A stretch of 64,000 nucleotides of DNA from Pegea sp. RAD2-039 (Eukaryota; Chordata; Thaliacea; Salpida; Salpidae): NCBI GenBank assembly GCA_034620365.1, contig JAQGEQ010000305.1, positions 434,001-498,000 on the forward strand, read 5' to 3'. Made by a program: the position numbers and the translations under genes. This document shows positions 40,732-64,000 of the stretch, one piece after another; within the stretch, counting starts at the first letter, position 1; the number at the start of each line of letters is the position of its first letter. Below the pieces are notes generated by a model. It was given only the letters and a program-made list of their open reading frames with translations. It made no database searches and had not been told where the DNA came from.

Positions 40732-42029
40732 ATGAGCAAAGAAAGTAATTTTCATGTTGAAATTAAAGAAAGTAATGGGAGTATACCTGATTATTTAAAA
40801 AATAGTTTCATTTCCACATCAGCTGATACATCAGAAGGTAAATAAATGTTCCTAAAAATTAATTGAATATACTATGTATACAAATTAAAAATGTTATTAT
40901 AATATTAAACAATCTGGCAAAAGTATTGATTTAAATTTGGCTAATTGTTATGAATACGCGTTATTAGTTTAAAAACTTATCAATTTCGGAGTTATTTTGA
41001 AATCTTCTCTATATTACATATCTTGAAATGTACTTTAGATCTTTTAATTATTTTTCTGCTATTATATAGTTTTGTTTTCCTCTTAAAAGCGGTAAAATGT
41101 GTAATCTGTAGTCATGTATTAGTGTATAATTATATTTTTATTATATTTATTTTTCATTCAGTTAAAGATATTGTTTTAAGATAAAGTTCATTCCACCAGG
41201 ACAAAAAACTTTTTTGTGGTTATTGAAGCGTGATTCCAATCTTTTACATGCCAGTTGTGTCTTTACAACTCGTTCAGAAGACTTTTTCTATTGATTCATG
41301 ATTTCTCCATCAAGCTAATTGATGCTTTTAGCCTGAGGGTTTTTTTTTATGCTTTTGTAGTGCAGCAAAAGATTTAAAGCTAATTTCCAATCTTTTGGTT
41401 TGTTAAAATTTCCAATTGAAAGTTTTTTAATGAAACTTGATTAAGTATTGATATAGAAGTCAACTGACAAAGATTAGAGAAAAATTATAAAAAATTAATA
41501 ATTATTTTATATTAATCATTCAATTGAATTTTAATAACTTTTTTGACTATTTTTATTTAACTCATAATTTTTGTTTAATTTTTTCAACTAACACAAAAAT
41601 GTTTTCAGCTATTAGCTGTCTCTAAATTGAATTGCTCTGAAAATTGATGTCTTTTGTAAAAAATATAATTTTAGATCACTAAAAGTTTTATTTATACCAC
41701 AGAAATTGAATAATTAGATTGAAAAGCTTTTTAGAAATTTCTTTGGTTTTCTTTTAATTTGTAAAAATGGTTTTAAATTCTACAATTAAATCTTTTATTT
41801 TAATTTGTTCATTTTCTTCATAAATTTTGTTGATGGATTACTTATGGTTTTACTTTTATAGAAAGAAAAAAGCTCAAAAGGATTTATTTGAATTATTTTT
41901 TTTAATCAAATTATTAAAAGTGTTTATTTGCGATAATAATTGGTGTTTTAATTGATTAATGACTTGTTTAATATGATATTTAAGCTACAAGCAAGTGTTT
42001 GTTTGATATTTAGTTTCCGTTTTATTGTA
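40585..42029 (+). repeat. Inverted duplication, right (parent) arm
   Basis: Holds the GGT7 proximal upstream region, exon 1 and most of intron 1. Its reverse complement is at 35195-36635. Homology starts at ATAGTC (40585) and ends at ATTGTA (about 42029). Confidence 0.92.
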
Positions 42030-45000
42030 TTTGTTTTGATGTTTGACATCTAATTTTATTAGTTTTTAAATTTAATCTTTAAAATTATGAAAAAAAAAGC
42101 GACTTTCTTTTTTACAAATTGTTTTTTTTATTTTTTATGACTGTTGAATTACCATTTCTTCTAAATTTTATCTCATTTTAATCCTTTTTTTCTCCTCAAC
42201 AATTTATTAATTTTGCTTTATTAGACACTAAATTAGTCAGTTTTTAAAACTCAATTGAGAGATAATTTTTTCAGAGGTATTTCTTCAGCGTGCTATTAAT
42301 TTATCAATTTGTATTAGGGTTTTTAATGATATTTAAAATGTTTATAATTTTTTTTTATAATTTTTGTAGGCCAAGGCGCAATTCTACAAATGGAAGATAT
42401 AGAGAATGGTTCATCTCCCAAAAAAGCCAGATCATCAGCATCAAATGATTCTACTTCAAATATTTTGATGATGGAACTATCCCCAGAGGAAAGTTCACCT
42501 TTGAAGGAAACCCAAAATGATCCTTTTTCGAGTTCGAAGTACCTTCTAATTAACATTCATTGATTAATTTTTTTGAAGAATAAATTTTTAGATGGTTTCG
42601 ATTCTTGAATGGGGTTTATATGTTAATAATTGGAATGGTAGTTTTAGCATTTGTTCTAACCCTGGCATTAATTTTCCAATCAAGCTTCGGAGTCAAACAG
42701 GTTTTTAACAAATTCTATTTTTATAACCGGAAATCAGAGATTCGTCATTCATCAGGTATATCCTCATGGTGCAGTCATCTCATCAAACTCGGAGTGTTCG
42801 AAACTCGGGAAAGATTTTTTATCTGAGCCTTTAACTTCTACAGTTGATGCAGCGATCTTGACAAGCCTGTGTCTATCTATTTTGCATCCGCACTCTTCTT
42901 CACTTGGAGGGTCAGTTTGAATCAGGTTTTTAATTCCATCAACACATTTGTTGACAGGGGAGGTTATATGATTGTATACAATCTCCGAGGAAGACTAAAT
43001 GATTCAAGTGAAATCAATTTTCGTGAGATGAGCGGCGAAAGACTAACAGAAGATTTATTGAAGAACTTCTCCTCTGAATCCCTTCCAAAAGGTCTCAAAG
43101 TTGCAGTACCCGGTACTATCAAAGGCTTGTTTCAAGCCCACCAGAAGTATGGAAGGTTTGTATATCAAGCTTTAATTGATTGATGAAATTATGGGCAAAA
43201 CTGTTTGTACTAAATTGTGAAGATATAAAGAGATTTTTTTGTACTTTTGATGCTCTTCACATCAATAAAACCCTTTTCGGGCCCCTGAACATGCTTTTGG
43301 GGTTGTAAACTGGATTAGATAGTCAGTAAAAGATAAAACTCCTAAAAATATCAATCATATCAGTTTTTTTGTTGCCATTTTTAAGTTTTTTTCTCAACAT
43401 TTTAGGAAGCATCTTTGGTTAGACTTTATTTACTGTTTTTAAAAGATTCTTTAAATATTAAATTAATAAAATTTTGATGATTTAGACGAAGCTGGGAAGA
43501 GATAATGATGAGAGCCAATCACTTAGCTTTGAAAGGAGGCTTTGTTTCACCAGAATTAGAATCAGCAATTTCAGATGTCAATTTATCATCATTATCTTCT
43601 GATCTTCGAAATTTGATTACAAATCAAATTGGGTTGAAGTTGAAAGTCAACGATAAGTTACCACCTCAAAAACAACTTGCTTCTCTCTTCAAAGTTAGTC
43701 TTCTATTTGATGAATTATTTTCATTTTTTAATGATTTTAATTAAGAGAATTTTAAAATCTTTAAAACTTTTTTCATCTGTTGAATTTTCTCGTTAAATTT
43801 TGAAAATTTTCTTTCAGAATTTATCAAATTCTGGAATTGAAGCATTTTATGAAAGCTCATTTACAAACAGTTTGATCAAAACAGTCAGATCACAAGGTGG
43901 CATCTTAACAGTGGATGATTTAAAATTTTATAAACCAATTTCTTCTCCAAAACCTCATCTAATGCTCTTCAATTGTAAGTTCTTCAAACTATCCTAAATC
44001 AACTGGAACTTTATTTCAATTTCTACAAAGCTATGAGATGTGTAATTGGAAAAGGTTCTATGTTTGGATCTGTTGTTCATTACATCATTGGGCTTCTAGA
44101 AAGTAGCAAAAGTTCAAAAGAAACTTTCAATGGAACTCTACAAGTTTGTCTCTTGTTTTTATATTACTTTTTTATAATCAAATTCACAACCACAATGTTA
44201 GTTGCTATAAAAAGGCATCTTGAAAAAACCCTCGACCACCAAGCGCAAGATTTGTTTGTAAGAAAAGTTTGAGTTAGTCCAGAAGTTTTTACTTATTAAG
44301 GTGCTGAGTCTTGTTAATTAAATGCAAGAATGGAATTAGTGCCACAAAAACACTCAGCAATTAGTTTAATAAATTAATTTCTTCTACAGCTTCATCAACT
44401 TATTGAATCGATAAAATTTGGAATGGGAAAATTATCTCAAGGGTTTAATTTCACCTCAGCTAACAAGTTAGTTCCGACTTTACATCATCAGTAAATGATC
44501 TTACATCTCGAAGATTTCCGACCATCAAAAACAACAGCGTCTATCCACTGAGAGATTATCTTCAAGGATATCAGCCTTTAACTTTCAAACAGAGTACTCG
44601 ACAATTTGTAAATACTCTGGGTCCTGATTATATTGCAGTTTCTTTAGTCATGTAAGATGTTGTTGACAAATCCGAGCAACTGAGTTCATCTTTACCTCCA
44701 GGAGTCTTGGATCTTCCTTCGGATCAGGAATCACTCAATCAGGAGTCGTACTGAATGATGCTGTGACAGATTTTTCCTGGCCTCAGAAGAACCCTTTAAC
44801 TTCAGGAAAACTTTCCGAGGTGATTTTAGATCTTCATCTTTTTATCAACTAACCTTTTAATCTTTAGACAAATCTTGTAAGACCTCGATCTCGTCCTATT
44901 TCACCACTCATTCCAATGATCACAATCCCAAAATCTTCACAATGTGGGACTTATCACCTGGTTGGTGAATCTGGAACAGGAGACACAAGTCTCGCTGGTG

Positions 45001-45608
45001 AGTTGAATATAAATCTTTGATCTTCATCACTTTAATCTGCATCAACTTGTAGCTGTCACAAGAGTCTTATTGGATTTATCTTTTGGAAAATCCTTCAATT
45101 TTAGTATCTCAGATTTTCGGTTATTCCCCGTTTTTGAAAATGGAACGAGTAGTGTTTACATTGAAGGTATCTTTATTTATTCTTCATCTTCTTATCCTTT
45201 TCTGCTGATTTTATTATGATCTTGTTGTGATCTTCTTCTGAGTTTAACTTTCTCTTAACTTCATCTAATCTTCTGTTGATCCTTACCAGATCTTCTGATC
45301 TGATGTTGACCTTCATATGATCATTCAGTTCTAATCTTCTTCTGATCCTTTTTTATCTTGCTTACATCTTCATCAGATCTTCATCTAATTATTTTTAAAT
45401 CTTTGATTGATCATTCTGTTCTTTTATAGAATCTACACCAAAGCTTCTAGTTGAAAATCTCAATCTGATGGGACATCATTTAGTTCCCATATCTCAAATT
45501 AGAACTGATACTAAAAGTTTTATTTGTGGAATCACACGTCACAAGAAAGGCTCCTTTGATTTATCTCATGATCACCGGATGACCAATGGTAGTGGATATT
45601 TTTTCTAA
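40732..45608 (+). CDS. GGT7: GGT7, gamma-glutamyltransferase-like type II membrane protein (14 exons)
   Basis: Exons 40732-40837, 42370-42538, 42592-42700, 42756-42910, 42958-43155, 43486-43693, 43818-43974, 44031-44143, 44390-44466, 44514-44651, 44702-44819, 44868-44997, 45053-45166 and 45430-45608 give 656 codons in phase (human GGT7 662, recalled). A cytoplasmic N-terminus is followed by one membrane anchor (about 98-121, NGVYMLIIGMVVLAFVLTLA) and the GGT fold: VYPHGAVISSNS, TSTVDAAI, HPHSSSLGGGGYMIVY, SGIEAFYESSFT, SFGSGITQSGVVLND and DFSWP. At the position where active GGTs have the catalytic threonine (GGTAHLSVV-like), this protein has GPDYIAVSLV (from residue 467), as human GGT7 has GPDDFIVA. 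It is thus probably GGT7 and probably not an ordinary transpeptidase. Exon 1 is duplicated in FBXO8; the 3' end from 44915 is triplicated. Confidence 0.94.
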
Positions 45609-48600
45609 AAACTTTTACAGAATGTTGAATCAGAAAAATTGTCAGTTTTGACTTTCATTTTTGTTTACAGAATTTCAATTTAATTTTATTAATTGGAAAT
45701 TGCCAGTAATTAAATTTAACAAAAGCCATTTCCATGAATAAATTATAGATGCACATTAGTATCTATTTATCTTTTTAAATTTGTTTTTTATTTAAAGAAA
45801 ATTGTTGTAGGTTTATAAAAAGCCAATTTATCTATATTTTATATTATGTTACTGAATCTGTATTTATCGTTCTTTAACTTTATATTAATCTGTAAAAACC
45901 TTCTTTAGATTGTAAACTTATTCGTAAACGATATTGTTTTTACCTCTTATTTAGCAATTTATTTTTTATGCTCTTTAGATGTATATGTATTCTTTGCACA
46001 TTCTTTGAGAAACATAATGTTGGTGTCATCTTAAAAATCATCAGTTAAAATAAAAGAACAAAAAAAGTTATTTATATAAGAACAATTTTTATTCGGAAAA
46101 TATTTAAACTTTTTTGATAAAAACTTTTTATCAAAGTTTTTAAAAGTTAAAGAGATAAGTTTATTATTTAAGAATAAGGAAATATTTTTAATTAAATTTA
46201 ATTACTGACAAAGTGAAAAACCAAAATAAGTTTTGCTGTTTTATGAAGTGAAACACATAAAAGTAAATTCAGAAAGTACAAAAACCTAAAATATAATAAT
46301 TAGATCTTTTCTCAATTTTAAGTTTAGTGTTTATAATTAAAAGTTTTCAAGATTTGGGTTACAGAGCCGACATCTTTAAAAAATTCCAAGTCTTAAAACT
46401 ATACGGCTCTTTAATTAAATTTGATTTAATTGTATAAGGTTAATCAACAACAAAATTTTAATGATTTGAATTAATTATTTTTATAACAATCTAGTTTGCT
46501 AAAGAAACCTGGAAATGTTGGAGTGAATTGAATCTCATCTACATCTCATCATCTTATGTATAATGTCTTTTGTATTCTGCCTTGAACTTTCATTACTACA
46601 CGAATGTACAATTTATACATAAGTTAAAAGTAGTTTCATCTGAAATTGTTCAATTTAAATCATCTAACTCTTTGTATAGTTGCCTTAATCTTTGGGTCTA
46701 CGTTGACAATCAGAAATTTATTTACTCAAGAAGTTTATTGATTGCTTTTACTTGAAGTAAACCGATGTTAAGTTCAAACAAAATGTCTCTTTTTTTAAAT
46801 GATTGTCCTAGGACACACTTTCTCGGCAAAATCGACGTTGTCCTCAAAAACTTCATTGTGGTTTCATGACTTTGTCTCTGATCAATCATTGTTTCTGAAT
46901 AAGCCAACAGATAACTTCTAAAATCATTTATCTTACTGCAGTATACATTCTTGAGTTTGCTGCCATCTGTTTTGTAGTTTGAGCGCTTAAAAACCATTAT
47001 TAGCTTTTCGAATCACTAACTAGAGCCCAGTGTACTCGTCAAAGCCTTGCACCTGTTTACCTTTCCAATAAAGGCTTTCACTAAATGAGTAAGCAGTTAA
47101 TCGTTCATCAGTTCCTAAAATACACTTGTAACGAGTAGTCAAGGGAAATGTTTGCTGCTCTAATAGAGGAAATTATGTGATTAGTTTTAATACAAGTGTT
47201 TTATCGATTCAAATTTTTATTTCAAACTATAAACTTGACCATTTTCATTAACAAAAGTTCAATTCAATATACAAATATGAGACAAATAGTCTAATAAACC
47301 AAATTAAATGAGTTTTCAGAAAATATTTCATAAAAACACATGATAAAAATCAATCTTTAATTCAATTTAATGACTAGACTTAAACAAAATATTGACACTT
47401 AACTGTTATTTGAGACTAAAATATAACATTTCTTTATAAAACTTGACAATTTCAAACTAGGAGAACTTATAAAAGACTATTTCACACAAAAATCGAATAC
47501 ACTTAAAAAGATATCAACTAATTGAGCAGAAAAATTCTTTCCTGTAGATAAATTTTGTACTTGGTGACCAAATGTTCTTAAATGGAATTAATTATCTACT
47601 TTCGGAGTTTTTCAAAATTGTGTTTGACTTCGTATAAAAAAGGAAGAGATTATAAAATAAACAATAATTTCTTCAACATTAAAAAGGAAAACTATTTGTA
47701 AGATATACCGCTGTTTAAAAGGAAACTGCTGAAAATGTTTTAAAAATATATGATAACCCATATCTTACAACTATCTTAAGAAGTTATTTCAAGTAAAGAA
47801 CGATTTAATAATGATTAATTTAATAAAAAGTTAGAAAGTATTTTGTAAATTAATGTCAAAAGAACTTTTAGAAAAATGTTTTTAGTAAATTTTACTTATA
47901 TGTTACACTAATTTTTTAACCTTTACAATTTTTTCTTCTAACTCGAACTTCTAATAATAAAAGATTTTAGTTTGATCAATAGACATCAACTGTAATGATA
48001 CCCGCTGTGATGTTTTTAGTTACTTTATCATTATTATGTTAGGTTTTCTCATAAGTTCGTAATAAAGTTATGTTTCTATTTAATAATAAATGTTTTATTT
48101 TGGTGCACTTGAATTCTGTGATTATTTTCTGTTAATTAAATATAAAACTAAACTGGTGTAAAATTTAAAAAACAAACATATATATATTTCGGAAAAGCTA
48201 AAAATAAGCAACAATTTTTTTGTTTATCTTTCATCTAATGTAGAAACTTTAAATCACTGATAATAAAATATATCAACTTAAATTAGGGGTTTTTTTGTTA
48301 GTCTACCATTTTGTAAATTTCAAAAGTTAATTGAGCTCCGAATATTTTTCTCAAATGTGTTCTTTTGTAACCAATCTTTTCTTAAGGTAGTATTTGAAGG
48401 TTTCTTAATTTGATTGCCAAATTTTCGGGTTAATGTTTGCACTCGATTAACAAAACTTTCATTAATTATTATTTTTGTGATTATATCATGTTTACCATTT
48501 AATTAAATTTATTTAAAATATATTGTTTTTTATGGTTTTAGTTTTCTATTTAATTTATTACTTTTTCTTGATATTAAAACATAATAAACTTTATATTAAT

Positions 48601-49057
48601 TTTGTGATAAATTCCTTATCTGTATTTAAAACAAAATTATTATGTTTACAAATATTTAGAAAGTTCATATTTTTTTTTCTTTTTGTTTATTTTTATTATA
48701 TGAATAATTTTATAATAACTCTCATAATTTAGGATTTATATTAATTTTTCAATATTTGGATATTATTTAATATTGTTGTTTTATTATAATTTGATTTGAT
48801 TTAAAAAATATGATCTAGTTTTAATAATTTCATAGAATTAATTAGAGTTTATTTTAAATTTAATAGAATTATGGAACATGAATGAATATTTTTAATTTTT
48901 TGATAAATAGATATATTTTACTAATTTTATTTATTGAATTTATTTTTTAATAATAATTTTAAAATATTTTTATTTTTTAAATATAAGTAAATTTCTAATT
49001 AATTTTTTTTGCATAAAGCTAGTTTTTTATGGTTTTTTTTAATTTATATCATGCAAT
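45609..49057 (+). other. GGT7-to-CYLD spacer, copy 1
   Basis: No gene seen. The spacer must hold the GGT7 polyadenylation site (an AATAAA is at about 45737) and the CYLD promoter near 48900-49050. Most of it is repeated at 52071-54991 and 57880-60812 with few differences. Short frames in it are not conserved between the three copies, which argues against coding. Confidence 0.6.
45671..46199 (+). other. 529-bp segment present only in unit 1
   Basis: In units 2 and 3 the flanks TTTGTTTACA and ACTGACAAA are joined directly through AATT. Unit 1 has AATT at both ends of the extra segment (45671 and 46200), so a microhomology-mediated deletion in the ancestor of units 2 and 3 explains it. It includes the AATAAA nearest to the GGT7 stop. 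Confidence 0.75.
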
Positions 49058-51381
49058 ATGTCGTTGGTTTATAACCTGAAACAGCAAATTAGTTTTTATA
49101 TGGTATTAGAAGATACTTATTTATATCTATCTCAGGCCAGTTCTAAAAAAGTTTCGCCTATTAAAAAAATGAAGGCTATTCCGAAAGGTAAATTTTATGA
49201 ATTATCTTTTTAATGATGGTGATTATTTATTTTTAGGGTCTATACTAGAAGAAGTATATAGTCCCAATTGTCAAAGATTATTGTATCTTGTTCAAAATGA
49301 TTTAAGAAACGGTGAAAAACTATATACTGTTTCTAGCAAGAATATAGAAATTCAAAAAATAACAAATGTAAGATAATTTATTATCATAATTTAATTAGCT
49401 ATGACTAAATATTTTCAGAATTGAAGTGTTTTTAGAAATGTCTTTTTAAACACTTATGATTAGAATGTGGGTTGCTAATTGTTGATATGATTAATTTTAT
49501 AAATTTTAAATGCTTTTATTAAGATTTATTCCTTTAACATGATTGATCTATTCCAAGATTCTTTGAATGGACTATAAGCGAGTCTTTAGACAACAGATTA
49601 TGTTCATAACTCTATGAATATACTTTGAGCCCTTTAAAACTTATTATAAGTTTCCTTAAAAAGCTTTTAAACTGTTTAACATGATTGATCTATCCTAAAC
49701 TTCCTTTGAGCGGACTAAGCGTGTCTTTAGACAACAGATTATGTTCAAAACTCTACGAATATACTTTGAGCCCTTTAAAACTTATTATAAGTTCCCTTAA
49801 AAAGCTTTTAAACTGTTTAACATGATTGATCTATCCTAAACTTCCTTTGAGCGGACTAAGTGTGTCTTTAGACAACAGATTATGTTCATAACTCTACAAT
49901 ATACTTTGAGCCCTTTAAAACTTATTATAAGTTCCCTTAAAAAGCTTTTAAACTGTTTAACATGATTGATCTATCCCAAACTTCCTTTGAGCGGACTAAG
50001 TGTGTCTTCAGACAACTGATTATGTTCATAACTCTATGAGTATACTTTGAGCCCTTTAAAACTTATTTTAAGCTTTCTGAACCATCTCTGTGATACATAA
50101 ACATGTTTTTAATATAAACTTGTTTACTTTTTCTGAAGGCTTTCGCAAAGTTATTGCTAGCTGTTCCATGTTTAGCATTGAGATTTGATTTTCTGAAACA
50201 ACAAATCCATCTGCAGAGAGCTCTTAGCTGTTTGATTGGTGATTCGGTTCAAGTTAATGTTTCTGATCATTATTATCCAGGTAAATTTCAACACCTGAAT
50301 AACTTATCTGAGAATTTACTTGTTTATCCAGGTATTGTAAGATATAAAGGAGAAATACCCCATCATGTGGGTATCTACTTTGGGATTGAAGTTTTCCATC
50401 CTGGAGTTGGCGACTCAAACGGAGTGAATAATAAGAAGAGGTTTTAAACTTGAGTTTTTCAACAAACTCATTTGAACCTTAAAATGACTTTCAGATGCTT
50501 CTACTGTAAAGATGACTATGGGATTTTCACGAGTATGGAAAGTATTCACTTCGAGTCAAAGAGGAAGAAACTTCAGCGGATGTCAAGCAGACGGACTACA
50601 AGTATACATCACTTGATGATATAAAGATGTAACTATTCAATCTTTTTAGTGGTAGTTGGAGAAAGATTGAAATCCGTTGATCCCTATCAGAACATCACAA
50701 AGATGGAGCTTGATCAGATTGGGATCTTTCTTGGATATGAAGTCTCACTCTTTGTTGATTACAAAGGAAGAGAGAGTGAAGAGCGAGGCACAGTTCGGTT
50801 TGTCGGTGATTAAATTTGACGAAATTTGCAAAAGTTACTGAGTCATCTACAGGTCGGTTGCCAGGGTACCTAGCTTCAAGTGAAATCCATGTTGGGATCA
50901 ACCTGAAACGACCAGCAGGATCAGGAACCGGGATTTATCGCGGATACCAATTATTTGAAGCGCAGATGGATCACGCTGCGATTGTTCCATTGTCGAGGAT
51001 CAAAGTAGTTGAGAATGATGTTGTATCACCGAGTCTGTTGAGAAAGAGCCGGAGGAAGAGTAGGAAGAAGGCTCATTCATGCTCTTCTTCAGAGGTAGAT
51101 CAACTCCGGATGTTGATCTGATATCTAACATTAGTTGTTTACAGAAGAGTTCTTCCCAAGGATCAATCAACTTGCCAGATACAACCTCTCCAATCTCAGG
51201 TTCGGAGTCTTCGATCCCAACTTCGATCGAGTCTTGTTTTGATTTGAGTTGTGACTTTTTAGAAATGAAATCATTGACGACGGATGCTTTGACTGGATGC
51301 TTCCTTGAGATTGGGACCCTTGTTCAAATCGATCGAAATAAAGTGTACTCGAAGGAAGTAACCTGTAGCCAGTTTCAATGA
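49058..51381 (+). CDS. CYLD: CYLD copy 1, truncated: two CAP-Gly domains, no protease
   Basis: CYLD removes Lys63- and Met1-linked ubiquitin chains and binds microtubules or partners through CAP-Gly domains. Exons 49058-49187, 49237-49367, 50139-50280, 50332-50440, 50495-50601, 50650-50805, 50853-51094 and 51145-51381 form an open frame of 417 codons. The N-terminal region matches CYLD (FYMVLEDTYLYLS, KAIPKGSI). CAP-Gly 1 at about 125-190 (YPGIVRYKGEIP, GIYFGIEV, CKDDYGIF); CAP-Gly 2 at about 235-320 (GTVRFVGRLPGDL-like, HVGINLKRPAGSGTG, YRGYQLF). Exon 8 is cut at 51376, where GGT7 exon 12 sequence follows; the junction itself creates the stop (CAG TTT CAA TGA). CAP-Gly 3 and the USP domain are missing. 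The transcript would use GGT7 tail sequence as 3' UTR. No other damage is seen, so a short protein is possible. Confidence 0.85.
49531..50074 (+). repeat. Minisatellite in CYLD intron 2, copy 1: 4 units of about 141 bp
   Basis: Units start at TAACATGATTGATC at 49535, 49677, 49818 and 49958, spaced 142, 141 and 140 bp. Each holds TTTGAGCGGACTAAG (the first is variant), TTTAGACAACAGATTATG and CTTTGAGCCCTTTAAAAC. The last unit runs into the common intron end. Confidence 0.9.
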
Positions 51382-52070
51382 TCACAATCCCAAAATCTTC
51401 ACAATGTGGGACTTATCACCTCGTTGGTGAATCTGGAACAGGAGACACAAGTCTCGCTGGTAAGTTGAATACAAATCTTTGATCTTCATCACTTTAATCT
51501 GCATCAACTTGCAGCTGTCACAAGAGTCTTATTGGATTTATCATTTGGAAAATCCTTCAATTTTAGTATCTCAGATTTTCGGTTATTCCCCGTTTTTGAA
51601 AATGGAACGAGTAGTGTTTACATTGAAGGTATCTTTATTTATTCTTCATCTTCTTATCCTTTTCTGCTGATTTTATTATGATCTTGTTGTGATCTTCTTC
51701 TAAGTTTAACTTTCTCTTAACTTCATCTAATCTTCTGTTGATCCTTACCAGATCTTCTGATCTGATGCTGACCTTCATATGATCATTCAGTTCTAATCTT
51801 CTTCTGATCCTTTTTTATCTTGCTTACATCTTCATCAGATCTTCATCTAATTATTTTTAAATCTTTTATTGATCATTCTGTTCTTTTATAGAATCTACAC
51901 CAAAGCTTCTAGTTGAAAATCTCAATCTGATGGGACATCATTTAGTTCCCATATCTCAAATTAGAACTGATACTAAAATTTTTATTTGTGGAATCACACG
52001 TCACAAGAAAGGCTCCTTTGATTTATCTCATGATCACCGGATGACCAATGGTAGTGGATATTTTTTCTAA
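51377..52070 (+). pseudogene. GGT7 3' fragment in unit 2 (part of exon 12, exons 13-14)
   Basis: Copy of GGT7 from 44915 to its stop codon, fused directly after CYLD copy 1 exon 8. Splice sites and the final stop are kept, and there are a few substitutions. It lacks the start, the membrane anchor and most of the GGT fold, and is read out of any GGT7 frame because the junction stop codon precedes it. Likely role at most 3' UTR and polyadenylation. Confidence 0.9.
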
Positions 52071-54991
52071 AAACTTTTACAGAATGTTGAATCAGAAAAA
52101 TTGTCAGTTTTGACTTTCATTTTTGTTTACAAAATTACTGACAAAATGAAAAATCAAAAAAGCTTTTCTGTTTTATATATTGAAATTCATATAAGTAAAT
52201 TCAGAAAGTACAAAGACCTAAAATATAATAATTAGATCTTTTCTCAATTTCAAGTTTAGTGTTTATAATTAAAAGTTTTCAAGATTTGGGTTACAGAGCC
52301 GACATCTTTAAAAAATTCTAAGTCTTAAAACTATACGGCCCTTTAATTGAATCTGATTTAATTGTATAAGATTAATCAACAACAAAATTTTAATGATTTG
52401 AATTAATTATTTTTAATTTTTTAATTTTTATAACCAGCTAGTTTGCTAAAGAAACCTGGAAATGTTGGAGTGAATTGAATCTCATCTACATCTCATCATC
52501 TTATGTATAATGTCTTTTGTATTCTGCCTTGTACTTTCATTACTACACGAATGTTTCAATTTATACATAAGTTAACAGTAGTTTCATCTGAAATTGTTCA
52601 ATTTAAATCATCTAACTCTTTGTATAGTTGCCTTAATCTTTGGGTCTATGTTGACAATCGGAAATTTAATTATTCAAGAAACTTATTGATTGCTTTTACT
52701 TGAAGTAAACCGATATTAAGTTCAGACAAAATGTCTCTTTTTCTTTAGATGATTGCCCTAGGACACATTTTTTCGGCAAAATCGACGTTGTCCTCAAAAA
52801 CCTCATTTAGTTTCATGACTTTGTCTCTGATCAATCATTGTTTCTGAATAAGCTTACAGATAACTTCTAAAATAATTTATCTTACTGCAGTATATATTTT
52901 TGAGTTTGCTGCCATCTGTTTTGTAGTTTGAGCGCTTAAAAACCATTATTAGCTTTTCGAATCACTAACTAGAGCCCAGTGTACTCGTCAAAGCCTTGCA
53001 CCTGTTTACCTTTCCAATAAAGGCTTTCACTAAATTAGTGAGCAGTTAATCGTTCATCAGTTCCTAAAATACACTTGTAACGAGTAGTCAAGGGAAATGT
53101 TTGCAGCTCTAATAGAGGTAATTATGTGATTAGTTTTAATACAAGTGTTTTATCGATTCAAATTTTTATTTCAAACTATAAACTTGACCATTTTCATTAA
53201 CAAAAGTTCAATTCAATCTACAATTTGAGACAAATAGTCTAATAAACCAAATTAAATGAATTTTCAGAAAATATTTCATAAAAACACATGATAAAAATCA
53301 ATCTTTAATTCAATTTAATGACTAGACTTAAACAAAATATTGACACTTAACTGTTATTTGAGACTAAAATATAACATTTTTTTATAAAACTTGACAATTT
53401 CAAACTAGGAGAACTTGTAAAAGACTATTTCACACAAAAATCGAATACACTTAAAAAGATATCAACTAATTGAGCAGAAAAATTCTTTCTTATAGATAAA
53501 TTTTGTACTTGGTGACCAAATGTTTTTAAATGGAATTTATTATCTACTTTCGGAGTTTTTCAAAATTGTGTTTGACTTCGTGTAAAAAAGGAAGAGATTA
53601 TAAAATAAACAATAATTTCTTCAACATGAAAAAGGAAAACTTTTTGTAAAATATACCGCTGTTTATAAGGAAACTGCTGAAAATGTTTTAAAAATATTTG
53701 ATAACCCATATCTTACAACTATCTTAAGAAATTATTTCAAGTAAAGAACGATTTAATAATGATTAATTTAATAAAAAGTTAGAAAGTATTTTGTAAATTA
53801 ATGTCAAAAGAGCTTTTAGAAAAATGTTATTAGTAAATATTACTTATATGTTATACTAATTTTTTAACCTTTACAATTTTTTCTTTTAACTCGAACTTCT
53901 AATACTAAAAGATTTTAGTCTGATCAATAGATATCAACTGTAATGATACCCGCTGTGATGTTTTTAGTTACTTTATTATTAATATGATAGATGTTCTCAT
54001 AGGTTCGTAATAAACTTATGTTTCTATTTAATGATAAATATTTTGTTTTGGTGCAGTTAAATTCTGTGATTATTTTCTAACTAAAAACTAAACTGGTGTA
54101 AAATTTAAAAAACAAACATATATATATTTCGGAAAAGCTAAAAATAAGCAACAATTTTTTTGTTTATCTTTCATCTAATGTAGAAACTTTAAATCACTGA
54201 TAATAAAATATATCAACTTAAATTAGGGGTTTTTTTGTTAGTCTACCATTTTGTAAATTTCAAAAGTTAATTGAGCTCCGAATATTTTTCTCAAATGTGT
54301 TCTTTTGTAACCAATCTTTTATTAAGGTAGTATTTGAAGGTTTCTTAATTTGATTGCCAAATTTTCGGGTTAATGTTTGCACTCGATTAACAAAACTTTC
54401 ATTAATTATTATTTTTGTGATTATATCATGTTTACCATTTAATTAAATTTATTTAAAATATATTGTTTTTTATGGTTTTAGTTTTCTATTTAATTTATTA
54501 CTTTTTCTTGATATTAAAACATAATAAAACTTTATATTAATTTTGTGATAAATTCCTTATCTGTATTTAAAACAAAATTATTATGTTTACAAATATTTAG
54601 AAAGTTCATATTTTTTATTCTTTTTGTTTATTTTTTATTTTTGAATAATTTTATAATAACTCTTATAATTTAGGATTTATATTAATTTTTCAATATTTGA
54701 ATATTATTTAATATTGTTGTTTTATTATAATTTGATTTGATTTAAAAAATATGATCTAGTTTTAATAATTTCATAGAATTAATTAGAGTTTATTTTAAAT
54801 TTAATAGAATTATGGAACATGAATGAATATTTATAATTTTTTGATAAATAGATATATTTTACTAATTTTATTTATTGAATTTATTTTTTAATAATAATTT
54901 TAAAATATTTTTATTTTTTAAATATAAGTAAATTTCTAATTAATTTTTTTTGCATAAAGCTAGTTTTTTATGGTTTTTTTTAATTTATATC
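52071..54991 (+). other. GGT7-tail-to-CYLD spacer, copy 2
   Basis: Duplicate of the unit 1 spacer without the 529-bp segment. No gene seen. Confidence 0.6.
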
Positions 54992-57190
54992 ATGCAATAT
55001 GTCTTGGTTTATAACCTGAAACAGCAAATTAGTTTTTATATGGTATTAGAAGATACTTATTTATATCTATCTCAGGCCAGTTCTAAAAAAGTTTCGCCTA
55101 TTAAAAAAATGAAGGCAATTCCGAAAGGTAAATTTTATGAATTATCTTTTTAATGATGGTGATTATTTATTTTTAGGGTCTATACTAGAAGAAGTATATA
55201 GTCCCAATTATCAAAGATTATTGTATCTTGTTCAAAATGATTTAGGAAACAGTGAAAAACTATATACTGTTTCTAGCAAGAATATAGAAATTCAAAAAAT
55301 AACAGAAGTAAGATAATTTATTATCATAATTTAATTAGCTATGACTAAATATTTTCAGAATTGAAGTGTTTTTAGAAATGTCTTTTTAAACACTTATGAT
55401 TAAAATGTGGGTTGCTAATTGTTGATATGATTAATTTTATAAATTTTAAATGCTTTTATTAAGATTTAGTCCTTTAACATAATTGAACTATTCCAAGATT
55501 CTTTGAATGGACTATAAGCGAGTCTTTAGATAACAGATTATGTTCATAACTCTATGAATATACTTTGAGCCCTTTAAAACTTATTATAAGTTCCCTTAAA
55601 AAGCTTTTAAACTGTTTAACATGATTGATCTATCCTAAACTTCCTTTGAGCGGACTAAGCGTGTCTTTAGACAACAGATTATGTTCAAAACTCTATGAAT
55701 ATACTTTGAGCCCTTTAAAACATATTATAAGTTCCCTTAAAAAGCTTTTAAACTGTTTAACATGATTGATCTATCCTAAACTTCCTTTGAGCGGACTAAG
55801 TGTGTCTTTAGACAACAGATTATGTTCATAAATCTACGAATATACTTTGAGCCCTTTAAAACTTATTTTCAGCTTTCTGAACCATCTCTGTGATACATAA
55901 ACATGTTTTTAATATAAACTTGTTTACTTTTTCTGAAGGTTTTTGCAAAGTTATTGCTAGCTGTTCCATGTTTAGCATTGAGATTTGATTTTCTGAAACA
56001 ACAAATCCATCTGCAGAGAGCTCTTAGCTGTTTGATTGGTGATTCGGTTCAAGTTAATGTTTCTGATCATTATTATCCAGGTAAATTTCAACACCTGAAT
56101 AACTTATCTGAGAATTTACTTGTTTATCCAGGTATTGTAAGATATAAAGGAGAAATACCCCATCATGTGGGTATCTACTTTGGGATTGAAGTTTTCCATC
56201 CTGGAGTTGGCGACTCAAACGGGGTGATTAATAAGAAGAGGTTTTAAACTTGAGTCTTTCAACAAACTCATTTGAACCTTAAAATGACTTTCAGATGCTT
56301 CTACTGTAAAGATGACTATGGGATTTTCACGAGTATGGAATGTATTCACTTCGAGTCAAAGAGGAAGAAACTTCAGCGGATGTCAAGCAGACGGACTACA
56401 AGTATACATCACTTGATGATATAAAGATGTAACTATTCAATCTTTTTAGTGGTAGTTGGAGAAAGATTGAAATCCGTTGATCCCTATCAGAACATCACAA
56501 AGATGGAGCTTGAATAGATTGGGATCTTTCTTGGATATGAAGTCTCACTCTTTGTTGATTACAAAGGAAGAGAGAGTGAAGAGCGAAGCACAGTTCGGTT
56601 TGTCGGTGATTAAATTTGACGAAATTTGCAAAAGTTACTGAGTCATCTACAGGTCGGTTGCCAGGGGACCTAGCTTCAAGTGAAATCCATGTTGGGATCA
56701 ACCTGAAACGACCAGCAGGATCAGGAACCGGGATTCATCGCGGATACCAATTATTTGAAGCGCAGATGGATCACGCTGCAATTGTTCCATTGTCGAGGAT
56801 CAAAGTAGTTGAGAATGATGTTGTATCACCGAGTCTGTTGAGAAAGAGCCGGAGTGAGAGGAGGAAGAGTAGGAATAAGGCTCATTCATGCTCTTCTTCA
56901 GAGGTAGATCAACTCCGGATGTTGATCTGATATCTAACATTAGTTGTTTACAGAAGAGCTCTTCTCAAGGATCAATCAGCTTGCCAGATACAACCTCTCC
57001 AATCTCAGGTTCGGGGTCTTCGATCCCAACTTCGATCGAGTCTTGTTTTGATTTGAGTTGTGACTTTTTAGAAATGAAATCATTGACGACGGATGCTTTG
57101 ACTGGATGCTTCCTTGAGATTGGGACCCTTGTTCAAATCGATCGAAATAAAGTGTACTCGAAGGAAGTAACCTGTAGCCAGTTTCAATGA
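54992..57190 (+). pseudogene. CYLD copy 2, truncated and interrupted
   Basis: Same exon layout as copy 1: 54992-55127, 55177-55307, 55939-56080, 56132-56240, 56295-56401, 56450-56605, about 56653-56903 and an exon 8 that ends at the junction stop (57188-57190). A single base is missing in the ATGTC(G)TTGG start region; this puts an ATG 7 nt further upstream in frame (MQYVLVYN instead of MSLVYN), so the N-terminus can still be read. In exon 6 the codons GAT CAG have become GAA TAG (stop at 56515-56517), before the second CAP-Gly core. Like copy 1 it lacks CAP-Gly 3 and the USP domain. It is most likely a pseudogene. Confidence 0.85.
55471..55874 (+). repeat. Minisatellite in CYLD intron 2, copy 2: 3 units
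   Basis: Units start near 55475, 55617 and 55758 and are the same about 141-bp unit as in copy 1. Confidence 0.9.
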
Positions 57191-57879
57191 TCACAATCCC
57201 AAAATCTTCACAATGTGGGACTTATCACCTGGTTGGTGAATCTGGAACATGAGACACAAGTCTCGCTGGTGAGTTGAATATAAATCTTTGATCTTCATCA
57301 CTTTAATCTGCAACAACTTGCAGCTGTCACAAGAGTCTTATTGGATTTATCATTTGGAAAATCCTTCAATTTTAGTATCTCAGATTTTCGGTTATTCCCC
57401 GTTTTTGAAAATGGAACGAGTAGTGTTTACATTGAAGGTATCTTTATTTCTTCTTCATCTTCTTATCGTTTTCTGCTGATTTTATTATGATCTTGTTGTG
57501 ATTTTCTTCTAAGTTTAACTTTCTCTTAACTTCATCTAATCTTCTGTTGATCCTTACCAGATCTTCTGATCTGATGCTGACCTTCATATGATCATTCAGT
57601 TCTAATCTTCTTCTGATCCTTTTTTATCTTGCTTACATCTTCATCAGATCTTCATCTAATTATTTTTAAATCTTTTATTGATCATTCTGTTCTTTTATAG
57701 AATCTACACCAAAGCTTCTAGTTGAAAATCTCAATCTGATGGGACATCATTTAGTTCCCATATCTCAAATTAGAACTGATACTAAAAGTTTTATTTGTGG
57801 AATCACACGTCACAAGAAAGGCTCCTTTGATTTATCTCATGATCACCGGATGACCAATGGTAGTGGATATTTTTTCTAA
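57186..57879 (+). pseudogene. GGT7 3' fragment in unit 3
   Basis: Second detached copy of GGT7 exon 12 (part), 13 and 14, fused after CYLD copy 2. It carries its own substitutions (for example GGA to TGA in the copied exon 12, in CTGGAACATGAGAC). No start codon or upstream exons. Confidence 0.9.
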
Positions 57880-60812
57880 AAACTTTTACAGAATGTTGAA
57901 TCAGAAAAATTGTCAGTTTTGACTTTCATTTTTGTTTACAAAATTACTGACAAAATGAAAAATCAAAAAAGCTTTTCTGTTTTATATATTGAAATTCATT
58001 AAAGTAAATTCAGAAAGTACAAAGACCTAATATATAATAATTAGATCTTTTCTCAATTTCAAATTTAATGTTTATAATTAAAAGTTTTCAAGATTTGGGT
58101 TACAGAGCCGACATCTTCAAAATATTCCAAGTCTTAAAACTATACGGCACTTTAATTAAATTTGATTTAATTGTATAAGGTTAATCAACAACAAAATTTT
58201 AATGATTTGAATTAATTATTTTTAATTTTTTAATTTTTATAACCAGCTAGTTTGCTAAAGAAACCTGGAAATGTTGGAGTGAATTGAATCTCATCTACAT
58301 CTCATCATCTTATGTATAATGTCTTTTGTATTCTGCCTTGTACTTTCATTACTACACGAATGTACAATTTATACATAAGTTAAAAGTAGTTTCATCTGAA
58401 ATTGTTCAATTTAAATCATCTAACTCTTTGTATAGTTGCCTTAATCTTTGGGTCTACGTTGACAATCAGAAATTTATTTACTCAAGAAGTTTATTGATTG
58501 CTTTTACTTGAAGTAAACCGATGTTAAGTTCAAACAAAATGTCTCTTTTTTTAAATGATTGTCCTAGGACACACTTTCTCGGCAAAATCGACGTTGTCCT
58601 CAAAAACTTCATTGTGGTTTCATGACTTTGTCTCTGATCAATCATTGTTTCTGAATAAGCTTACAGATAACTTCTAAAATCATTTATCTTACTGCAGTAT
58701 ACATTCTTGAGTTTGCTGCCATCTGTTTTGTAGTTTGAGCGCTTAAAAACCATTATTAGCTTTTCGAATCACTAACTAGAGCTCAGTGTACTCGTCAAAG
58801 CCTTGCACCTGTTTACCTTTCCAATAAAGGCTTTCACTAAATGAGTAAGCAGTTAATCGTTCATCAGTTCCTAAAATACACTTGTAACGAGTAGTCAAGG
58901 GAAATGTTTGCTGCTCTAATAGAGGAAATTATGTGATTAGTTTTAATACAAGTGTTTTATCGATTCAAATTTTTATTTCAAACTATAAACTTGACCATTT
59001 TCATTAACAAAAGTTCAATTCAATATACAAATATGAGACAAATAGTCTAAGAAACCAAATTAAATGAATTTTCAGAAAATATTTCATAAAAACACATGAT
59101 AAAAATCAATCTTTAATTCAATTTAATGACTAGACTTAAACAAAATATTGACACTTAACTGTTATTTGAGACTAAAATATAACATTTCTTTATAAAACTT
59201 GACAATTTCAAACTAGGAGAACTTGTAAAAGACTATTTCACACAAAAATCGAATACACTTAAAAAGATATCAACTAATTGAGCAGAAAAATTCTTTCTTA
59301 TAGATAAATTTTGTACTTGGTGACCAAATGTTCTTAAATGGAATTAATTATCTACTTTCGGAGTTTTTCAAAATTGTGTTTGACTTCGTATAAAAAAGGA
59401 AGAGATTATAAAATAAACAATAATTTCTTCAACATTAAAAAGGAAAACTTTTTGTAAGATATACCGCTGTTTAAAAGGAAACTGCTGAAAATATTTTAAA
59501 AATATATGATTACCCATATCTTACAACTATCTTAAGAAGTTGTTTTAAGTAAAGAACGATTTAATAATGATTAATTTAATAAAAAGTTAGAAAGTATTTT
59601 GTAAATTAGTGTCAAAAGAACTTTTAGAAAAATGTTATTAGAAATATTACTTATATGTTATACTAATTTTTTAACCTTTACAATTTTTTCTTCTAACTCG
59701 AACTTCTAATACTAAAAGATTTTAGTTTGATCAATAGAAATCAACTGTAATGATACTCGCTGTGATGTTTTTAGCTACTTTATCATTAATATGATAGATT
59801 TTCTCATAAGTTCGTAATAAACTTATGTGTTTATTTAATAATAAATATTTTGTTATGGTGCACTTGAATTCTGTGATTATTTTCTGTTATTTAAATATAA
59901 AACTAAACTGGTGTAAAACTTAAAAAACAAATATATATATATTTCGGAAAAGGTAAAAATAAGCAACAATTTTTTTGTTTATCTTTCATCTAATGTAGAA
60001 ACTTTAAATCACTGATAATAAAATATATCAACTTAAATTATGGGTTTTTTTGTTAGTCTGCCATTTTGTAAATTTCAAAAGTTAATTGAGCTCCGAATAT
60101 TTTTCTCAAATGTGTTCTTTTGTAACCAATCTTTTCTTAAGGTAGTATTTGAAGGTTTCTTAATTTGATTGCCAAATTTTGGGATTAATGTTTGCACTCG
60201 ATTAACAAAACTTTCATTAATTATTATTTTTGTGATTATATCATGTTTACCATTTAATTAAATTTATTTAAAATATATTGTTTTTTATGGTTTTAGTTTT
60301 CTATTTAATTTATTACTTTTTCTTGATATTAAAACATAATAAAACTTTATATCAATTTTGTGATAAATTCCTTATCTGTATTTAAAACAAAGTTATTATG
60401 TTTACAAATATTTAGAAAGTTCATATTTTTTTTTCTTTTTGTTTATTTTTATTATATGAATAATTTTATAATAACTCTTATAATTTAGGATTTATATTAA
60501 TTTTTCAATATTTCAATATTATTTAATATTGTTGTTTTATTATAATTTGATTTGATTTAAAAAATATGATCTAGTTTTAATAATTTCATAGAATAATTAG
60601 AGTTTATTTTAAATTTAATAGAATTATGGAACATGAATGAATATTTTTAATTTTTTGATAAATAGATATATTTTACTAATTTTATTTATTGAATTTATTT
60701 TTTAATAATAATTTTAAAATATTTTTATTTTTTAAATATAAGTAAATTTCTAATTAATTTTTTTTGCATAAAGCTAGTTTTTTATGGTTTTTTTTAATTT
60801 ATATCATGCAAT
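57880..60812 (+). other. GGT7-tail-to-CYLD spacer, copy 3
   Basis: Third copy of the spacer, closest to copy 2 in structure. It is the promoter region of the only CYLD copy that can be full length. No gene seen. Confidence 0.6.
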
Positions 60813-63464
60813 ATGTCGTTGGTTTATAACCTGAAACAGCAACTTAGTTTTTATATGGTATTAGAAGATACTTATTTATATCTATCTCAGGCCAGTTCTA
60901 AAAAAGTTTCGCCTATTAAAAAAATGAAGGCTATTCCGAAAGGTAAATTTTATGAATTATCTTTTTAATGATGGTGATTATTTATTTTTAGGGTCTATAC
61001 TAGAAGAAGTATATAGTCCCAATTGTCAAAGATTATTGTATCTTGTTCAAAATGATTTAAGAAACAGTGAAAAACTATATACTGTTTCTAGCAAGAATAT
61101 AGAAATTCAAAAAATAACAGAAGTAAGATAATTTATTATCATAATTTAATTAGCTATGACTAAATATTTTCAGAATTGAAGTGTTTTTAGAAATGTCTTT
61201 TTAAACACTTATGATTAAAATGTGGGTTGCTAATTGTTGATATGATTAATTTTATAAATTTTAAATGCTTTTATTAAGATTTATTCCTTTAACATGATTG
61301 ATCTATTCCAAGATTCTTTGAGTGGACTATAAGCGAGTCTTTAGACAACAGATTATGTTCATAACTCTACGAATATACTTTGAGCCCTTTAAAACTTATT
61401 ATAAGTTCCCTTAAAAAGCTTTTAAACTGTTTAACATGATTGATCTATCCCAAACTTCCTTTGAGCGGACTAAGTGTGTCTTTAGACAACTGATTATGTT
61501 CATAACTCTATGAATATACTTTGAGCCCTTTAAAACTTATTTTAAGCTTTCTGAACCATCTCTGTGATACATAAACATGTTTTTAATATAAACTTGTTTA
61601 CTTTTTCTGAAGGCTTTCGCAAAGTTATTGCTAGCTGTTCCATGTTTAGCATTGAGATTTGATTTTCTGAAACAACAAATCCATCTGCAGAGAGCTCTTA
61701 GCTGTTTGATTGGTGATTCGGTTCAAGTTAATGTTTCTGATCATTATTATTCAGGTAAATTTCAACACCTGAATAACTTATCTGAGAATTTACTTGTTTA
61801 TCCAGGTATTGTAAGATATAAAGGAGAAATACCCCATCATGTGGGTATCTACTTTGGGATTGAAGTTTTTCATCCTGGAGTTGGCGACTCAAACGGGCTG
61901 ATTAATAAGAAGAGGTTTTAAACTTGAGTCTTTCAACAAACTCATTTGAACCTTAAAATGACTTTCAGATGCTTCTACTGTAAAGATGACTATGGGATTT
62001 TCACGAGTATGGAAAGTATTCACTTCGAGTCAAAGAGGAAGAAACTTCAGCGGATGTCAAGCAGACGGACTACAAGTATACATCACTTGATGATATAAAG
62101 ATGTAACTATTCAATGTTTTTAGTGGTAGTTGGAGAAAGATTGAAATCCCTTGATCCCTATCACAACATCACAAAGATGGAGCTTGATCAGATTGGGATC
62201 TTTCTTGGATATGAAGTCTCACTCTTTGTTGATTACAAAGGAAGAGAGAGTGAAGAGCGAGGCACAGTTCGGTTTGTTGGTGAGTAAATGTGACGAAATT
62301 TGCAGAAGTTACTGAGTCATCTACAGGTCGGTTGCCAGGGGACCTAGCTTCAAGTGAAATCCATGTTGGGATCAACCTGAAACGACCAGCAGGATCAGGA
62401 ACCGGGATTTATCGCGGATACCAATTATTTGAAGCGCAGATGGATCACGCTGCGATTGTTCCATTGTCGAGGATCAAAGTAGTTGAGAATGATGTTGTAT
62501 CACCGAGTCTGTTGAGAAACAGCCGGAGTGAGAGGAGGAAGAGTAGGAATAAGGCTCATTCATGCTCTTCCTCAGAGGTAGATCAACTCCGGATGTTGAT
62601 CTGATATCTAACATTAGTTGTTTACAGAAGAGCTCTTCTCAAGGATCAATCAGCTTGCCAGATACAACCTCTCCAATCTCAGGTTCGGGGTCTTCGATCC
62701 TAACTTCGATCGAGTCTTGTTTTGATTTGAGTTGTGACTTTTTAGAAATGAAATCATTGACGGATGCTTTGACTGGATGCTTCCTTGAGATTGGGACCCT
62801 TGTTCAAATCGATCGAAATAAAGTGTACTCGAAGGAACTAACATCCAGCCAGTTTCTGTACGGTGTGGTCCGGTGGTTGGGTCAAGGTTCCCTTAATGAG
62901 GTCAGATATACTCTCAGTATTTTCAATTTTGTTTTACATTTTCAAATCTTGATCCTGTAGAACAACATTCTATCCCATAAGATAATCCTTGTACCTTTTA
63001 AGAATATTTTTGTAGATTTGTGTATTCAGAGGCTTAGAGCTTATAATAAGATGCTCTCAAAAAGTCCCTATACCCCTGAATATATTCTGTTCCTCTGTAA
63101 ACATGCCTTAATACTTCTTGAACATATTCTCAGCCCCTTGAACATGTCCCTAGCTCTGTGAAAAGCCTTTTAAACATCCAATAAGCTTTTCAACATGAAA
63201 TTTGATAGTCTTCCTCTTAAACTTTCTGATGTAATATGGAATCGAGCTTTTCGATGTATGCAACAAAGATAGCATGAAGCGCTCATCTGTAAACTCAGTT
63301 GTTTAAATTCTTTTAGAATCTTGCTGGGGTCGAATTGGAGGAAGAAATTACAGGATTGGGAGATGGGATGTACCAAGGAGTAAGATACTTTACAGGACCT
63401 CCAGATCGTTGTCTGATACTACCAACTTCTATTTGTTACCCTGACAAACGGTTTGCTACATCTG
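60813..63464 (+). CDS. CYLD: CYLD copy 3, deubiquitinase, 5' part (continues past the window)
   Basis: Exons 60813-60942, 60992-61122, 61613-61754, 61806-61914, 61969-62075, 62124-62279, 62327-62577, 62628-62900 and 63317-63464 are open for 482 codons plus one base. CAP-Gly 1 and 2 are as in copy 1. Exon 8 continues past the unit end (LYGVVRWLGQGSLNE) into exon 9 (NLAGVELEEEITGLGDG and YQGVRYFTG), which is CAP-Gly 3, matching human [25 protein letters not shown] (recalled) in order. The ubiquitin-specific protease domain should follow beyond 64000. Compared with copy 1 it has three more codons in exon 7 and one fewer in exon 8. Intron 6 is 47 nt with a GTGAGT donor. This is the copy expected to supply full-length CYLD, a negative regulator of NF-kB type signalling in animals. 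Confidence 0.88.
61286..61545 (+). repeat. Minisatellite in CYLD intron 2, copy 3: 2 units
   Basis: Units start near 61290 and 61432. Same unit as in copies 1 and 2. Confidence 0.9.
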
Positions 63465-64000
63465 GTAACTTACAACTTTTTACACTTCAATTAACATCAA
63501 GTAGTGTCTAGCATGATAAGATGATTGGTTTATAAATGCAAGGGTCTTAGTTTTAATTTTATTTCAAGTATAATAATTTCATGAAATATCTATTGAGTCG
63601 TTCATCACTTCTTGTGACTGCTTACAACGACAGCAAAAGTCTTTAAAGACAAATGTTGTGCTATCTGTAAGCAATGTAAAAGCTGATCAAGTTGCCAACT
63701 CAGCAAGCTTGTTAAACTAGATTTTTGTTTAGTGACAACAACTGATTGTGCTAAGTCAAATGAAAGCCGATTACTGCGCAATATCCACACGCCACCATCA
63801 GTTCTAACTTCTAAAATGACTGGGTCCCACAGAGGGATACAAGGATATAACAACTCGTGTTATTTAGACGTTACCTTATTCAGGTAATTCCATCTTATAA
63901 ATACCACAAATTTCATTGGGATTTTCTTTTGATTGATTCATTTTCACTTGCTTGTATCTACAATTTTATGTTTTCAATTTTTATTTTTTTTTAGTTTGTT
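63465..64000 (+). other. CYLD copy 3 intron, unclassified less AT-rich patch
   Basis: Follows the exon 9 donor (TCTG|GTAACT). A patch at about 63605-63855 is less AT-rich than the rest and has an open minus-strand frame of 82 codons (from YPCIPLWDPVILEVRTDGGV). I do not recognise a domain; it may be part of a mobile element. The next CYLD exon is not seen before the window ends. Confidence 0.4.

Follow-up and report, generated by a model that had tools for sequence, protein, structure and literature searches.

A segment running from exon 11 of a GGT7-like gene to exon 8 of CYLD stands three times, head to tail, in the window analysed here (the whole stretch of 64,000 nucleotides from Pegea sp. 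RAD2-039), and each parent gene is kept once at the edges of the array. We give a probability of roughly four in five to an origin by near-blunt tandem duplication followed by misaligned homologous recombination, with conversion or haplotype mixing between the units and with leftover pieces that are most likely functionless. The triplication, described earlier in a sequence-only reading, was borne out by self-BLAST and by a three-way alignment of the exact units; the alignment also returned the same unit lengths, and self-BLAST placed all three units on the same strand.

44915..51376, plus strand: unit 1, 6462 bp; native GGT7 3' end, intergenic region, and truncated CYLD exons 1-8
51377..57185, plus strand: unit 2, 5809 bp; GGT7 3' fragment, intergenic region, and CYLD 5' fragment
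57186..62856, plus strand: unit 3, 5671 bp; GGT7 3' fragment, intergenic region, and native CYLD 5' part (exons 1-8 to the join point)
51376..51377, no strand: junction 1, CYLD exon 8 joined to GGT7 exon 11; read directly and used as a genome query
57185..57186, no strand: junction 2, with a join identical to that of junction 1; read directly and covered by the genome query

Direct reading of the two junctions (51376/51377 and 57185/57186) showed that the same CYLD base meets the same GGT7 base at both, as had been claimed, and that the overlap at the join amounts to one base, CYLD base 62856 and GGT7 base 44914 both being C. The GGT7 side of the join had been assigned to exon 12; in our coding model it falls in exon 11 of 13, a mismatch that an unseen 5' untranslated GGT7 exon could explain. 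In a search of the genome (105.7 Mb in 387 contigs), a 401-bp query spanning junction 1 matched four places among the best candidates scored, namely (i) both junctions over the full length (1-401) and (ii) the two unjoined parents over 174-401 and 1-177 of the query. A rearrangement of the DUP-TRP/INV-DUP type was rejected, since the middle copy is not inverted and every unit matches the same strand.

The upstream parent was modelled as the sole open combination of GT/AG borders near the approximate exons, and its 3' end forms the start of unit 1.

42390..45608, plus strand: complete GGT7-like gene; 13 coding exons, 620 amino acids, N-terminal hydrophobic segment, spliced open frame

Its protein matches Pfam G_glu_transpept (E 1.7e-70) and GGT1 in the PDB (E 4.4e-35). 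These matches do not separate GGT7 from GGT1, and we take the gene to be GGT7-like from a resemblance in GSGI..SGVVLN....DFSWP and from the earlier label. The protein query gave 19 matches in the genome, 18 of them at this locus and one, weak, on C236, and thus no second full GGT7-like copy was found with it. In unit 3, an additional TGA interrupts the GGT frame of the GGT7 3' piece. Intron 8 of the model (44443-44471) measures only 29 bp; 19 introns were modelled, 12 in GGT7 and seven in the CYLD of unit 3, and 13 of these measure 47-56 bp. Upstream lies an inverted repeat (35195-36635 and 40585-42029) with 1.45-kb arms that are 98% identical; it ends ∼360 bp before the GGT7 ATG, and its arms have, beyond themselves, one weak 56-bp match in the genome and are not an evident mobile element.

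The downstream parent comprises unit 3 and the sequence beyond it, and the claim that one GGT7-like gene (the upstream part plus unit 1) and one full CYLD remain agrees with our models, in which CYLD is apparently complete.

60813..64000, plus strand, continuing past the window to ∼499500 of the contig: apparently complete CYLD; exons 1-8 spliced, later exons read by eye and not as one spliced frame
49058..51381, plus strand: truncated CYLD of unit 1; 417 open codons, then TGA at 51379-51381

The identity of CYLD is secure at the sequence level, in that the part after the join matches CYLD in PDB entry 2vhf (E 4e-85) and the CAP-Gly part matches the CYLD entries 7owc, 7owd, and 1ixd. A query with the part after the join gave 11 matches, nine at the locus and two on C53 (CAP-Gly part only), and no other full CYLD copy in the genome. 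The join cuts CYLD at the third CAP-Gly region, before the peptidase. Accordingly, the unit 1 fragment contains two CAP_GLY stretches (Pfam E 2e-23) and lacks the peptidase; a CAA codon spans its join, with TGA as the following codon. The TGA follows the join directly at both junctions (51379-51381 and 57188-57190), which rules out an open frame through the join and with it a gene for a chimeric protein. Nor would the frame be kept if the joined exon were skipped and CYLD exon 7 spliced to either exon 12 or exon 13 of GGT, as worked out by hand from the exon lengths. The CYLD frame of unit 2 is broken by a 1-bp deletion just after the ATG (∼55003) and by a TAG in exon 6; a later in-frame ATG in the first exon might bypass the frameshift alone, but not the TAG. 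No RNA genes were detected in the window at Rfam gathering scores or by ARAGORN (bacterial code used).

The units had been called nearly identical outside indels. This description stands insofar as they are 97.6-98.1% identical in pairs over aligned bases, and it needs qualification insofar as they carry ∼2-2.4% substitutions and 16 gap runs. Units 1 and 2 differ at 141/5781 positions (2.4%), units 1 and 3 at 110/5646 (1.9%), and units 2 and 3 at 137/5660 (2.4%). Of the 6490 columns in the three-way alignment, 5635 are ungapped; among the latter, 191 are variable, with 82 changes specific to unit 2, 54 to unit 1, and 53 to unit 3, and two sites showing three bases. The largest features that distinguish the units are a block found in unit 1 only and a minisatellite in CYLD intron 2 with a different copy number in each unit.

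45671..46199, plus strand: 529-bp block in unit 1 only, from the alignment and a genome search
49533..50072, plus strand: 141-bp minisatellite of unit 1, 3.8 copies
55473-55867, plus strand: 141-bp minisatellite of unit 2, 2.8 copies
61288-61546, plus strand: 141-bp minisatellite of unit 3, about 2 copies, from BLAST and absent from the tandem-repeat listing

Within the 529-bp block, 45675-46199 matches itself alone in the genome, so a mobile-element origin is unsupported. AATT is present at both edges of the block, and the difference is compatible with either a microhomology deletion in units 2 and 3 or an insertion in unit 1. AATAAA, the polyadenylation signal, occurs after the GGT7 stop in unit 1 only, inside this block (992, 530, and 521 bp were scanned in units 1, 2, and 3, respectively), which would fit unit 1 as the working GGT7 end. 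A genome search did not find the 141-bp minisatellite outside the array.

These differences bear on whether the array could be an assembly artefact, that is, a two-unit array, or one differing between haplotypes, assembled as three units from two haplotypes. In some polymorphic invertebrates allelic variation spans ∼2%, and the divergence of the units would fit that range. However, the units differ at 191 of the 5635 columns and in 16 gap runs, the window contains no N, and genome searches found the junction, the 529-bp block, and the minisatellite on no other contig. Moreover, at least one junction would have to be real or else be a misjoin within two exons, and the second is identical to it at the base level. 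We therefore consider an assembly error unlikely as the source of the array.

The distribution of variable sites along the units is mosaic. Patterns at 189 of the 191 sites (the two three-base sites were dropped) form 84 runs where 124 were expected, and none of 10000 shuffles produced so few. Units 1 and 3 match each other through a run of 16 variable sites (46608-46860; p = 0.0002), units 2 and 3 through a run of 10 (45670-46255; p = 0.0004), and units 1 and 2 through a run of five (p = 0.18). Under a single unequal crossover, the middle unit should be most like unit 3 in its 5' part and most like unit 1 in its 3' part; the best split for this pattern lies at 48074 (p = 0.017). Toward the 5' end, unit 1 is set apart from units 2 and 3 by a 15-bp gap and by the 529-bp block. 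The three distances in the first 756 columns are nearly equal (1.2-1.5%). In the last 1 kb, units 1 and 2 differ by 1.5%, units 2 and 3 by 2.3%, and units 1 and 3 by 2.6%, while a gap of 9 bp close to the 3' end unites units 2 and 3, against the grouping of units 1 and 2; all of these patterns are unrooted, and reading them as kinship assumes a clock. Changes specific to unit 3 are densest in two places, 48147-48645, where they make up 9 of 10, and the last kilobase, where they make up 16 of 31; four positions just before the join belong to this class.

51358..51376, plus strand: 19-bp stretch leading up to the join; at four of its positions unit 3 departs from the base common to units 1 and 2

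By two post hoc tests, these four changes near the join gave a Poisson p of ∼1e-4 (25 bp) and were matched in 0 of 50000 permutations (22 columns). Since dense clusters also occur elsewhere (six overlapping windows each for unit 1 and unit 2 changes), and since the stretch was chosen post hoc, the cluster at the junction may be a coincidence.

The proposed order, duplication and then unequal crossover, is thus upheld in part. It is modestly favored by the split at p = 0.017, by the absence of the 529-bp block from units 2 and 3, and by the four junction changes common to units 1 and 2; it does not cover the closeness of units 1 and 3 or the extra mosaicism. Because units 1 and 3 are the closest overall and agree at 16 consecutive sites, a single crossover is insufficient, and one crossover alone is rejected by the significant mosaic. 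Judged from the site patterns, the mosaic would need gene conversion or parental haplotypes that already differed; if they did, the divergence of the units cannot date the event. Two successive independent duplications that reached the same join twice are barely credible: nothing but the existence of two junctions speaks for them, whereas the join is base-identical, four neighbouring changes are common to both junctions, and a one-base overlap offers no homology to steer the same join twice.

A near-blunt duplication followed by unequal crossover is the simplest origin of two identical junctions. The segment from GGT7-like exon 11 to CYLD exon 8 would have been copied once in tandem, by near-blunt and probably error-prone end joining or by template switching; error-prone replication has been proposed for human triplications, with small changes at some junctions, in a passage of PMC4352052. 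Misaligned homologous recombination may then have produced a third unit in which this junction recurs, and the units may have been patched into a mosaic by gene conversion or by recombination of haplotypes that differed. The duplication would have been tolerated because a whole copy of each gene was kept at the edges. The leftover pieces, namely a transcribable CYLD 5' fragment in unit 1, a broken one in unit 2, and GGT7 3' ends with no GGT7 start in units 2 and 3, are most likely functionless.

The unit 1 fragment could instead be a retained functional gene for a peptidase-less CAP-Gly protein that competes with full CYLD, and two points would suit such a role, namely the 417 open codons, which include two CAP-Gly stretches, and the duplicate of the CYLD upstream region that accompanies the fragment. 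We estimated dN of 0.0167, 0.0177, and 0.0176 and dS of 0.0226, 0.0301, and 0.0299 among the CYLD fragments of units 1-2, 1-3, and 2-3, which gives dN/dS of 0.74, 0.59, and 0.59, respectively; the nonsynonymous shares (16/22, 17/25, and 17/25) do not differ from random (p = 0.81, 0.49, and 0.49). Neither coding constraint nor positive selection on the CYLD copies was detected by dN/dS or the random comparison, at a power that is low, as pairs with unit 3, the working CYLD, look unconstrained too. The 11 exon changes specific to unit 1 had a 0.60 chance of introducing no stop; given this chance and a nonsynonymous share indistinguishable from random, the openness of the unit 1 frame does not count as evidence that it is used, and we rejected it as a sign of selection. 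The lack of any detected constraint, the 0.60 chance, and a dN/dS similar to that of the broken unit 2 copy all argue against a functional gene, as does the position of the stop, which precedes the next splice donor by 78 nt, a further intron lying beyond. Under the 50-55 nt rule, nonsense-mediated decay of such a transcript would be expected. We consequently regard a retained functional gene as improbable. Slightly less probable still is its most specific form, in which unit 1 makes, from the duplicated upstream region, a stable CYLD amino-terminal protein with two CAP-Gly regions that ends at the junction, competes with CYLD, and differs between individuals according to unit number.

Of the 966-kb contig, 273 kb were compared, and local duplications (at least 1 kb, at least 90% identity, direct or inverted) account for ∼78 kb of these, the array included. 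The contig's first 200 kb contribute 55.3 kb, and the 73 kb between the window start and contig position 507000 contribute 22.8 kb. Duplications being so widespread there, the GGT7-CYLD array is one of several in the compared sequence. A second tandem array lies ∼5.7 kb past the window end (contig 503721-507000), with 1.3-kb spacing and 91-96% identity, and runs to the edge of the compared stretch, while the start of the contig (1-77341) holds large direct and inverted duplications that are 98.9-99.9% identical in pieces of at least 2 kb. Elsewhere in the window, a 24-bp tandem repeat (4750-5329, ∼24 copies) sits inside a 448-aa open frame on the minus strand that matches NEPRO_N at residues 8-165.

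The array belongs to a known and ordinary kind, the modular tandem segmental duplication, and alone raises no long-standing question. It offers a clean, small example in which a duplication with both ends inside genes survives, both parents are kept, and the junction is preserved at the base level, with interior pieces that drift and yet continue to exchange sequence; the number of units in this species could be followed with the junction as a marker. Our literature search for CYLD with CAP-Gly tandem duplication in invertebrates found none. The closest architecture is that of human RCCX, the closest mechanism that of tandem-duplication chimeras in Drosophila, and the closest studied array Sdic.

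The outer edges of RCCX are occupied by intact RP1 and TNXB. Excerpts of PMC11542561 describe its modules in a row, with partial genes (TNXA and RP2) where modules meet, and copy number altered by unequal crossing over, with conversions. The GGT7-CYLD array shares with it the head-to-tail repeat of one junction, the partial genes at the joins, and the whole parents at the edges (CYLD past exon 8 being read by eye), as well as signs of recombination or conversion between modules, in that the mosaic here is significant, with differing parental haplotypes as an alternative source. It differs in that RCCX modules are larger with whole genes inside, whereas no unit here holds a whole gene. In Drosophila yakuba, tandem duplications that ignore gene boundaries fuse the 5' portion of a gene with the 3' portion of a second one (a passage of PMC5460883), just as a CYLD 5' part is joined here to a GGT7 3' part on the same strand; here, however, the frame stops just past the join, and there are three units. 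Sdic of D. melanogaster is described, in parts of PMC7475035, as an array that originated when a pair of neighbouring genes underwent segmental duplication, with gene conversion and pseudogene pieces. The likeness thus extends to a two-gene tandem array, conversion, and pseudogene pieces in the repeat, whereas the copies of Sdic retain coding potential and show evidence of selection (the same parts of PMC7475035) and the CYLD copies show no constraint in tests of low power.
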